The notes beneath the pieces are model-generated. The model saw nothing but the letters and a program-made list of their open reading frames with translations. It made no database searches and was not told the DNA's origin. From the NCBI GenBank assembly GCA_012518215.1, contig JAAYSV010000029.1, positions 1 to 64,000 on the forward strand: a DNA stretch of 64,000 nt, written 5' to 3'. A program made the position numbers and the translations under genes. Below, piece by piece: positions 2,524 to 6,137 of this stretch (its first letter is position 1; each line of letters begins with the position of its first letter). This stretch comes from Bacillota bacterium (lineage in GTDB: Bacteria > Bacillota > Dethiobacteria > DTU022 > PWGO01).

Positions 2524-3894
2524 TTAATCGTTACTATCTTTTAGAAACCGTTTTGCCATCCTGTCCTTGTTGATCTGGGGAGCACGTCCCAGAGCCAACG
2601 CCCCGGCCGGAACATCTTTGTTGAGCGTTGAACCTGCAGCCACGTAAGACCCTGCACCGATCTTGATGGGAGCAATGAGATTGCTGTTGCATCCGATGAA
2701 AGAATTTTTCTGTACGCAGGTACGGTGTTTGATCTGACCATCATAATTGACAATGATCGAACCTGCACCAAAATTGACGCCGGTTCCTATATCTGCATCG
2801 CCGATGTAGCTGAGATGCGGAATCTTGGACCCGGCTCCTACATCGGAATTTTTAACCTCGACAAAATTACCGATCTTGACCCCCGCGCCGATCACAGTTC
2901 CGGGGCGCAAATAAGCAAAGGGGCCGATATTTGCCCCTTCGTTGATGGTACTTTCTTCCGCCACGGAATTTTTTACCGAACATCCATCACCGACCGACGT
3001 ATCCCGCAAATGCGTTCCCGGCCCAATCCGGCAATCGTTCCCTATCCTGGAATTTCCTTCAACAATTGTCTGTGGATAGATCGTCGTGCCGTTGCCCACC
3101 TCCACCCCGTCATCCATAAAAGTAGAGTCCGGATCAATGATATTAACCCCTGTTTCAAGCAACTTCCTGTTAATACGGCCGCGCAATATCCTGACTGCTT
3201 CGGCCAATTGCAAATAATCATCGATCTTCATACTTTCCCCGAAATCTTCAGCCACAACCGCCCCTACATTCAGGCCATCCTTGATCATTGAAGAAATGAT
3301 ACTGGCAAAAAAACATCCATCAGCCATTTCCCGGGACCCGGTCTGTTTCAGGTATTTCTTGAGTGTCCGGGCCGCCAGGCAGTACGCTCCCGTGTCTGTC
3401 TCCTCAATCGTTTTCTCCCCGGCCAGAGCCTCCCCATCATCGACCACAATTTGAATGTCTCCATTTGCGTTGTGGATCATCCTTCTGTATCCGGAAAGTT
3501 CAGGTATTTTCGCGGCAAGCAAGACGACATCTCTTTCCTGCGCCGCTTCTGCCATCCTCTTCAAAGTCCGTGGTAAAAGTAACGGCATGTTTCCATGAAG
3601 AACAAGCACCGATCCGGAATCCGGAAGAACGTCCACCAATGATTCTACCTTCGCGCGGGGATTCTGTTGCCATGCTCCCGGGATACAGTGCGCCCCCCCC
3701 GCTCCGTGCAACATCTGCAACTCTCCTTCAGAACCACCCAGAAAGATAAGATTTTTCGTCAATAAACGAGCACCGTCTGCCACATACTCAAGCATCGGCT
3801 TGCCACAAAGCACCTGCCCCGATCGGGGTCGGCATGAATCTGTGCAGGGGGCAACCCCGTCGATCAACAATATTATTGCTGCTGTACAGCTCAT
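2524..3894 (-). CDS. glmU: GlmU-like protein with a degenerate uridylyltransferase domain
   Basis: GlmU normally acetylates GlcN-1-P (C-terminal domain) and then uridylylates GlcNAc-1-P (N-terminal domain) to UDP-GlcNAc. The C-terminal left-handed beta-helix (about 250-456) is intact: LRPGT with R330, VEVK with K348, PHLSYIGDA with H360 (equivalent to the E. coli catalytic His363) and Y363, then VNYDG. The N-terminal domain keeps its length but not its active site. The LAAGxGTRM loop reads LLIDGVAPCTDS (9-20), the GDxPL metal motif reads GNMPL (101-105, Asp to Asn), the QxGTGHA segment is unrecognisable and the GVNxR motif reads KIDDY. The reading frame is open throughout, so this is divergence, not a frameshift. 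Start ATG has GGAGG upstream. Acetyltransferase function is likely; uridylyltransferase function is doubtful. Confidence 0.88.
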   Translation of the reverse strand: MSCTAAIILLIDGVAPCTDSCRPRSGQVLCGKPMLEYVADGARLLTKNLIFLGGSEGELQMLHGAGGAHCIPGAWQQNPRAKVESLVDVLPDSGSVLVLHGNMPLLLPRTLKRMAEAAQERDVVLLAAKIPELSGYRRMIHNANGDIQIVVDDGEALAGEKTIEETDTGAYCLAARTLKKYLKQTGSREMADGCFFASIISSMIKDGLNVGAVVAEDFGESMKIDDYLQLAEAVRILRGRINRKLLETGVNIIDPDSTFMDDGVEVGNGTTIYPQTIVEGNSRIGNDCRIGPGTHLRDTSVGDGCSVKNSVAEESTINEGANIGPFAYLRPGTVIGAGVKIGNFVEVKNSDVGAGSKIPHLSYIGDADIGTGVNFGAGSIIVNYDGQIKHRTCVQKNSFIGCNSNLIAPIKIGAGSYVAAGSTLNKDVPAGALALGRAPQINKDRMAKRFLKDSND

Positions 3895-3964
3895 GAACTG
3901 ACAACCTCCATCAAATTAATTATTTCCAACCTAACCTTACTATATAATAATATCGGCAGAAGGA

Positions 3965-4474: not shown

Positions 4475-5236
4475 TTAATTTTCTGTAGATAACAATTTGC
4501 GAACCAACTCCAGATCCGAAGGCTTATCCACATCCACGCCTATCTCTGCATAAGGGGTAACCACTGCCCGTGCCTTGACCTTGAAAAGTCCCGATAAATA
4601 GGTTTCCAGTTCTTTGATCGACAGACGTTTGATAAGAAATTTTATGATATAAATCAGGGGCAGAGTCTGTACCAGTTTCCACGGTCTTTTTCGATAGGAC
4701 AGGTATACTTCAATATCGTCAATCTGCTCCAAAATCCAATACGGCTTGGTCATCATGACATTGCTACCGGTAAAAGTTCCTTCTTTGAGTTGCACATAAG
4801 TCCTCTTCACTCCAGGATAGTTTTTCTCACAGCTTTCCCGGGTGATGATCGGATAGTAAAAATCATGCTCGTAAGGGGAACAACGTTCCATCAAATCTTC
4901 AATTGCCTCCCTGGAAAGTAGAGGTATATCTGCCGAGATGATCAAACAGGGCCTGTACGGGTCCAATTCACCGAGACCGGCGGCAATATTGTCAAGAAAC
5001 GAACCGCGGGGGGTGATCGACTGGAAACTGTAACGGTCAATATTCAATTTTTCTAGCTCGTCGGGCATTCCTACCACGATGATATCTCCAATTTCAGGCA
5101 CTTCTCTCAAGGTCCCCATTATAATTTCGATCATTGTACGTCCTTCAATTTTTATGTAGGCTTTGTTCTCCACTTTCTCCATGATTTCCAGATCGCCCCT
5201 GCGGGTAGCTCCCGCCAGGATAACCACGTTCAACAC
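4475..5236 (-). CDS. MobA/GlmU-like nucleotidyltransferase family protein
   Basis: A 253-aa protein with an N-terminal NTP-transferase (Rossmann-like) fold. It starts VVILAGATRRG (about 4-14), a divergent form of the sugar-nucleotide loop LAAGxGTRM. It keeps an ADIPLL metal-binding motif (102-107, Asp103) and ends with a VDxxxDL segment typical of MobA-like enzymes. Substrate is unknown. It lies between ispE and spoVG, where related genes of uncharacterised function occur in other Clostridia. I chose GTG at 5236 because GGAGGAGGG lies 9 nt upstream; the longer open frame to 5338 would overlap ispE. Its proximity to a GlmU with a damaged uridylyltransferase half is suggestive, but no function should be transferred from that alone. 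Confidence 0.75.
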   Translation of the reverse strand: MLNVVILAGATRRGDLEIMEKVENKAYIKIEGRTMIEIIMGTLREVPEIGDIIVVGMPDELEKLNIDRYSFQSITPRGSFLDNIAAGLGELDPYRPCLIISADIPLLSREAIEDLMERCSPYEHDFYYPIITRESCEKNYPGVKRTYVQLKEGTFTGSNVMMTKPYWILEQIDDIEVYLSYRKRPWKLVQTLPLIYIIKFLIKRLSIKELETYLSGLFKVKARAVVTPYAEIGVDVDKPSDLELVRKLLSTEN

Positions 5237-5276
5237 GATACCGATCCCTCCTCCTGTCACATTATGGCAAAACAAT

Positions 5277-6137
5277 TCAAAGAGTCCAACTGATCCAGGC
5301 TTCATATCCTTCCTGTTCAAGGATAAACACAACGGCATGCGCCATCTCGAGAGAATCAGTCAATGCAAACATAACCGGGCCGCTTCCCGACATCAAGGGC
5401 AGCAACCCCGATTCTCTGAAAAGATTTTTCAGCCGATCCAACGAAGTATTGTCCCGGAATATTATTTCTTCCAGCATATTGACGCAATCCCGGGCCAGCC
5501 AATTCAAAATATTTTCCCGGTCCCCCCTCTCCAGATGCCGCCTTAAACGATCATAGCCAGAAGTAGTAGCAGGCAATTCACGGGGCAACTTCCTGTATAC
5601 CCCGCCGGTATGAATCACAAGACCCGCGGGCCTGGCCAGTACCAACCAGGAAAAAGGCAAAGAAGGCCACCGTTCCAGTATCTCCCCCCGTCCACGGGCC
5701 AGGGCAGTTCCTCCCTGAAGGCAGAAAGGCACATCGGAGCCCAGTTCAACAGCAATTGCCGCCAACTCATCCCGCGAAATCTGCAAATTCCATATCCTGT
5801 TCAGTGCAGTCAGTACAGTGGCCGCATCTGCACTCCCTCCACCCAGTCCGGCTCCCATGGGTATATTTTTGTACAGCGTTATGTTCAGCCCCCTGTTGAT
5901 CCGGGCCCTTTTTTTCAATGCAATCGCTGCACGGTAGGCCAGGTTTTCATCCCGGGGAATAACGGCTCCCCTGGTACAAAGATTGATCCCGCTGTTCTGA
6001 ATTTCCTGAAATATCAGGTAATCACAAAGGCCAATCTGCTGCATGACCGTTTCTATTTCATGATAACCATCAGGCCGCCTTTGAAGCACCTTCAAACCAA
6101 GATTGATTTTTGCCGGAGCGTTGAAAACCACATCCAT
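5277..6137 (-). CDS. ispE: 4-diphosphocytidyl-2-C-methyl-D-erythritol kinase
   Basis: GHMP kinase of the MEP pathway; phosphorylates CDP-ME to CDP-ME2P for isoprenoid synthesis. It is 286 aa, normal length. The substrate loop PAKINLGLKV (8-17), the ATP-binding GHMP motif PMGAGLGGGSADAA (about 92-105) and the C-terminal GSGP motif are present. It stands between sspF and the MobA-like gene, as in B. subtilis (sspF-ispE). The 40-bp gap to the next gene suggests cotranscription with it. The ribosome-binding site is weak (GGGGAAGG about 14 nt upstream of ATG). Confidence 0.95.
   Translation of the reverse strand: MDVVFNAPAKINLGLKVLQRRPDGYHEIETVMQQIGLCDYLIFQEIQNSGINLCTRGAVIPRDENLAYRAAIALKKRARINRGLNITLYKNIPMGAGLGGGSADAATVLTALNRIWNLQISRDELAAIAVELGSDVPFCLQGGTALARGRGEILERWPSLPFSWLVLARPAGLVIHTGGVYRKLPRELPATTSGYDRLRRHLERGDRENILNWLARDCVNMLEEIIFRDNTSLDRLKNLFRESGLLPLMSGSGPVMFALTDSLEMAHAVVFILEQEGYEAWISWTL

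Follow-up and report, generated by a model that had tools for sequence, protein, structure and literature searches.

A glmU gene with a degenerate N-terminal half

The gene examined here lies in a stretch of 64,000 nucleotides from a Bacillota bacterium (assembly GCA_012518215.1, contig JAAYSV010000029.1, positions 1 to 64,000; the window) and encodes a GlmU protein of 456 amino acids (Table 1). The gene order ispE, nucleotidyltransferase, spoVG, glmU, prs, rplY and pth is common to the window and its relatives, with synteny in the same-family genomes followed as far as their contigs reach. The protein scores above the cut-off of TIGR01173 (390.5 versus 366.85 bits), and both the solved structures closest to it and the best Protein Data Bank (PDB) matches of its predicted structure are all GlmU; judged by its sequence, it is a true GlmU by descent. 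Because it passes TIGR01173, annotation pipelines would label it bifunctional despite its lost uridylyltransferase site. No second GlmU was found in the rest of the genome, which is assembled in 61 contigs and 96.9% complete.

Table 1 Features of the window and GlmU-related proteins of the same order (window coordinates unless a locus is named)
Feature	Location	Strand	Basis
glmU, acetyltransferase kept, uridylyltransferase half degenerate	2524..3894	-	456-residue open reading frame (ORF), TIGR01173, closest structures, alignment
N-terminal pseudo-uridylyltransferase domain, residues 1-225	3220..3894	-	17/45 conserved positions kept; branch lengths; predicted fold
Former nucleotide loop, residues 10-18, LIDGVAPCT replacing LAAGxGTRM	3841..3867	-	Alignment
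Former GTGHA segment, residues 78-82, now NPRAK	3649..3663	-	Alignment
Metal ligand D105 changed to N102 (GNMPL)	3589..3591	-	Alignment
Sugar-site N169 changed to D167	3394..3396	-	Alignment
Second metal ligand N227 changed to D225	3220..3222	-	Alignment
C-terminal left-handed β-helix acetyltransferase, residues 226-456	2527..3219	-	42/43 conserved positions kept
Acetyltransferase active-site residues R330, K348, H360, Y363	2806..2907	-	Alignment
MobA-like nucleotidyltransferase neighbour	4475..5338	-	Homology from ORF residue 42; conserved here in relatives with intact GlmU
Truncated mirror-image GlmUs	L120-L122, L124, L125 (G032, G007, G018, G028, G027); L181-L185
Stand-alone β-helix proteins	L214:1690-2514 (beside glmM 2583-3926); L210:1715-2587; L211; L212; L213

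Loss of the uridylyltransferase site and retention of the acetyltransferase

The window protein was aligned with Escherichia coli GlmU and 49 relatives, and columns at least 95% conserved among the relatives were taken as conserved. The N-terminal domain has 45 such columns, at which the window protein has lost 28 residues and kept 17; every relative keeps at least 43. The lost residues include A11I, A12D, G15A, R17C, M18T, K24R, V25S, L26G, H27Q, Q73G, G78N, T79P, G80R, H81A, A82K, D102N, G137R, E152D, N167D, Y195F, G223K and N225D (window numbering). By E. coli positions, the nucleotide loop and GTGHA are affected, together with R18, K25, D105, G140, E154, N169, Y197 and N227. The LAAGxGTRM loop is replaced by LLIDGVAPCTDS, arginine takes the place of the catalytic lysine K25, and the QLGTGHA segment, G140, E154 and N169 are likewise gone. 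D105 and N227, which from GlmU structures we take to be the Mg ligands, are reciprocally swapped, the window protein having N102 and D225 in their place. The original prediction had named changes in the nucleotide-loop, metal-aspartate, GTGHA and GVNxR motifs, and the alignment with relatives shows all of these changes; the second Mg ligand and the catalytic lysine add to that list.

AlphaFold predicts the N-terminal fold mostly with confidence (blocks with pLDDT of 85–93), with values below 50 for residues 15–20 of the former nucleotide loop. The model suggests a domain that largely retains its fold and has lost its active site; with one remaining carboxylate (D225) at the metal site, some residual activity is conceivable.

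The C-terminal domain retains 42 of the 43 columns conserved among the 49 relatives, including R330, K348, H360, Y363, N374, N383 and K389 (R333, K351, H363, Y366, N377, N386 and K392 in E. coli). The first four had been predicted to be retained, as the alignment bears out, and at the level of residues the comparison supports an acetyltransferase that is kept alongside a uridylyltransferase that is lost.

The loss appears recent and local

Because the aligned full-length GlmUs of the same order, including those of two same-family genomes, all have an intact uridylyltransferase, the loss is, as far as these sequences indicate, recent and local. The window protein is 26–30% identical to the same-family GlmUs in the N-terminal domain versus 61–64% in the C-terminal domain, whereas between the two relatives the values are 51% and 60%. 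On a fixed tree, its branch length is 2.47 for the N-terminal and 0.36 for the C-terminal domain, a ratio of 6.9 against a median of 1.2 over sequences, and the N-terminal half would thus seem to evolve as if freed from selection.

A comparable loss was seen in none of 80 GlmUs from public genomes: at 12 catalytic positions, one protein (L035) has three changes, another (L074) has one and the others have none. A further 18 of 18 GlmUs across the phylum, chosen among the higher-scoring matches, are intact. The protein with three changes, from an uncultured Clostridiales bacterium (L035:4001-5380; G16N, K25N and N169S), also has a fast N-terminal branch and may be another GlmU in the course of decay.

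A candidate enzyme for the lost step

The genome needs UDP-GlcNAc: it encodes two MurA proteins, and contig C36 carries genes for a nucleotide-sugar dehydrogenase, an aminotransferase and a protein that joins a UDP-GlcNAc 3-dehydrogenase-like part to an acetyltransferase. Beside these genes, at the end of a sugar-nucleotide capsule cluster, lies C36:258-1181, whose product is a full-length homologue of PDB 3pnn, a ‘conserved domain protein’ of the PF00483 superfamily (267 bits, E = 1.7e-78, residues 4–304 of 307), with weaker matches to UTP–glucose-1-phosphate (GalU-type) uridylyltransferases. It contains the motifs GxGSR, GTGHAV and INADD (the G424 row was left out of the nucleotidyltransferase motif alignment, being the wrong ORF). 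A search of the remaining 97 class genomes found no 3pnn-type gene. The tetranucleotide composition of C36 correlates with that of the window at r = 0.972, the highest among seven of the genome's own contigs, which makes contamination unlikely. In open-access PMC papers, we found no demonstrated substrate for any 3pnn-family member.

Among 399 genomes of the phylum, seven carry a 3pnn-type gene, the window genome included, and six of the seven have no working GlmU uridylyltransferase. The forms of loss differ: the GlmU of G441, like that of the window, is full-length and dead (D105N in an identical GNMPLL, K25T, R18Q, G81E, N169D and N227T), that of G403 has a degenerate N-terminal domain, that of G382 has been reduced to an acetyltransferase of 233 amino acids, and in G204 and G359 no GlmU was detected, a stand-alone left-handed β-helix acetyltransferase resembling the archaeal GlmU C-terminal half being present instead. 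The seventh carrier, G424, has an intact GlmU together with the 3pnn-type enzyme. Fisher's exact test of 6/7 against at most 31/392 gives p = 2.8e-6, a value that comes from few carriers, takes no account of relatedness and concerns a pattern to which these seven genomes themselves gave rise. The figure of 31 covers weak as well as missing GlmU matches and is an upper bound, with contig-edge fragments and uridylyltransferase-only forms counted in. In G284, from the family of G441 and without a 3pnn-type gene, GlmU is intact.

The dead N-terminal domains of the window protein and G441 share 27% identity, which does not exceed their identity to intact GlmUs, and the window C-terminal domain is nearest to its own family. 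A shared origin is thus not supported, and the two losses look independent.

Salvage by N-acetylhexosamine 1-kinase (NahK) is known from bifidobacteria. Homologues of the kinase of this pathway (PMC6668579) adjoin the 3pnn-type gene in G441 and G359 (PDB 4wh1/4ocj, E < 1e-93), whereas none was seen among the genes adjacent to C36:258-1181, where the contig ends. On a Hymenobacter plasmid, the 3pnn-type gene adjoins a gene annotated as an aminoglycoside-phosphotransferase family member. Kinase and phosphotransferase neighbours would fit a HexNAc-1-phosphate substrate.

G204, in which no GlmU was detected, has its stand-alone archaeal-type acetyltransferase and its 3pnn-type nucleotidyltransferase encoded side by side (L180:4160-5152 and 5056-5661); the pair is a candidate for a complete two-gene replacement.

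Other nucleotidyltransferases in the genome

The PF00483 profile matched four proteins in the genome, three of which have similar-sized counterparts in relatives with an intact GlmU (about 360 amino acids in G002, G004, G005, G008 and G023; about 830–860 in most). The matches of C24:25257-25952 to archaeal GlmU and MurU score 198 and 148 bits, neither reaching the cut-off, and the C54 protein exceeds the cut-off for mannose-1-phosphate guanylyltransferase/isomerase. These counterparts, and for C54 its own assignment, led us to reject the C24, C38 and C54 proteins as the replacement. The proteins of C54 (L132:5504-8680) and C38 (L131:5436-7910) are nucleotidyltransferase–phosphohexomutase fusions of 1,058 and 824 amino acids, and many genomes of the order have such fusions. 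PF01704 (UDPGP) had no match in the genome, and control genomes gave no match either.

The MobA-like gene near glmU is conserved in all 14 relatives' loci tested, including those with an intact GlmU, which rules it out as a specific compensating enzyme. Its product has an unusual loop (LAGATRR...), and the gene adjoins spoVG and glmU throughout the order. The 5' end of the listed ORF overlaps ispE, with homology only from residue 42 onwards, so the true start probably lies downstream.

Explanations for the loss

We consider it probable that the window gene encodes a monofunctional acetyltransferase GlmU with a decayed N-terminal half, in a genome in which a horizontally acquired 3pnn-type enzyme makes UDP-GlcNAc. 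The β-helix would acetylate GlcN-1-phosphate, making the protein a glucosamine-1-phosphate N-acetyltransferase, and the released GlcNAc-1-phosphate would be converted to UDP-GlcNAc by the stand-alone C36:258-1181 enzyme. That gene may have been gained with or near the UDP-GlcNAc-using capsule cluster, and by supplying the activity it would have left the GlmU half free to decay as a pseudo-uridylyltransferase under relaxed constraint; we infer this order of events, gain followed by decay. The dead half may be kept in frame by the essential acetyltransferase translated downstream of it, and may aid folding. In further lineages that carry this type of enzyme, the GlmU half would have been degraded or deleted, or the whole gene lost. 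The original prediction that another enzyme must make UDP-GlcNAc gains support from the single GlmU found, the UDP-GlcNAc consumers and a candidate with six-of-seven co-occurrence; this unrelated enzyme most likely performs the missing reaction, and its presumed substrates, GlcNAc-1-phosphate and UTP, are suggested by genomic association.

A domain that still makes UDP-GlcNAc through a rearranged active site would account for the reciprocal swap (N102 and D225), the positive charge kept by K24R and the largely retained predicted fold. We regard it as very unlikely: the nucleotide loop, GTGHA, G140, E154, N169 and R18 are lost too, G441, which shares D105N, has a threonine at the second ligand, and an N-terminal domain evolving about seven times faster than the other half is what a lost rather than a shifted function would give. 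We infer from the sequence that uridylyltransferase activity is absent. That the divergence comes from a sequencing or frameshift artefact has a negligible chance, and no point in its support was found. The frame is intact, as had been claimed for the N-terminal domain, the canonical motifs occur in none of the alternative frames, the changes extend over 225 residues, codon-position GC is similar across both halves of the gene and a similar dead GlmU was found independently in G441; with the identities and branch lengths, these observations rule out a frameshift, misassembly or chance divergence.

If the uridylyltransferase is dead, the replacement could instead be a promiscuous nucleotidyltransferase acting on GlcNAc-1-phosphate and UTP, namely C24:25257-25952, C38:17438 or the MobA-like neighbour. 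The resemblance of the first to archaeal GlmU and MurU, albeit below cut-off, and the position of the last beside glmU speak for this reading, but it is unlikely, since their counterparts in relatives with an intact GlmU leave no such candidate specific to the genome with the lost activity. It is highly improbable that a second intact GlmU or pyrophosphorylase sits in the roughly 3% missing from the incomplete, 61-contig assembly, a possibility that would leave unexplained the C36 gene and its link to GlmU loss in near-complete genomes. The 3pnn-type enzyme remains our preferred replacement.

Relation to known GlmU proteins

The window protein is orthologous to bifunctional GlmU (TIGR01173; E. 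coli, Streptococcus pneumoniae and Mycobacterium tuberculosis), with the same length, synteny, fold and acetyltransferase residues, but its uridylyltransferase motifs are changed and it is predicted to be monofunctional. Single-activity GlmUs are known with the opposite half lost: Rickettsia GlmU lacks the acetyltransferase domain and keeps the uridylyltransferase, its GlcNAc-1-phosphate being thought to derive from the host (PMC5615194), and a similar loss of the acetyltransferase half has been described in Chlorobaculum limnaeum (PMC7725333). Our search of open-access PMC papers found no earlier description of an inactive, monofunctional or non-orthologously replaced GlmU uridylyltransferase.

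The mirror image also occurs within the same order, as GlmUs of about 340–375 amino acids that have intact uridylyltransferase residues and end before the acetyltransferase active site. The examined relatives with such a truncated GlmU have a stand-alone β-helix protein that resembles the archaeal GlmU C-terminal half and carries the R/K/H/Y acetyltransferase residues; its gene lies beside glmM in G007 and close to nagB in G012 and G018, and it is likely to be their replacement acetyltransferase. This archaeal type (the C-terminal part of TIGR03992) thus stands alone in relatives that have lost the other GlmU half, and beside the 3pnn-type gene in G204, whereas the window genome retains the bacterial GlmU acetyltransferase. 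Both halves of GlmU appear, from these gene complements, to be replaceable, from either side.

GlmU, usually regarded as an indispensable enzyme with two activities, is a drug target at its uridylyltransferase site (PMC9105790), the very site that the free-standing chromosomal glmU of the window has lost. The curated family model still names such a protein bifunctional, so annotation and metabolic models would be wrong for such genomes. For the 3pnn-type family, the co-occurrence offers a specific, simple and testable role as a candidate GlcNAc-1-phosphate uridylyltransferase. We lean towards the broader view that it is a bacterial UDP-GlcNAc pyrophosphorylase not recognised before, which has taken the place of the GlmU N-terminal half several times in Bacillota, in which case the two halves of GlmU would be independently replaceable.
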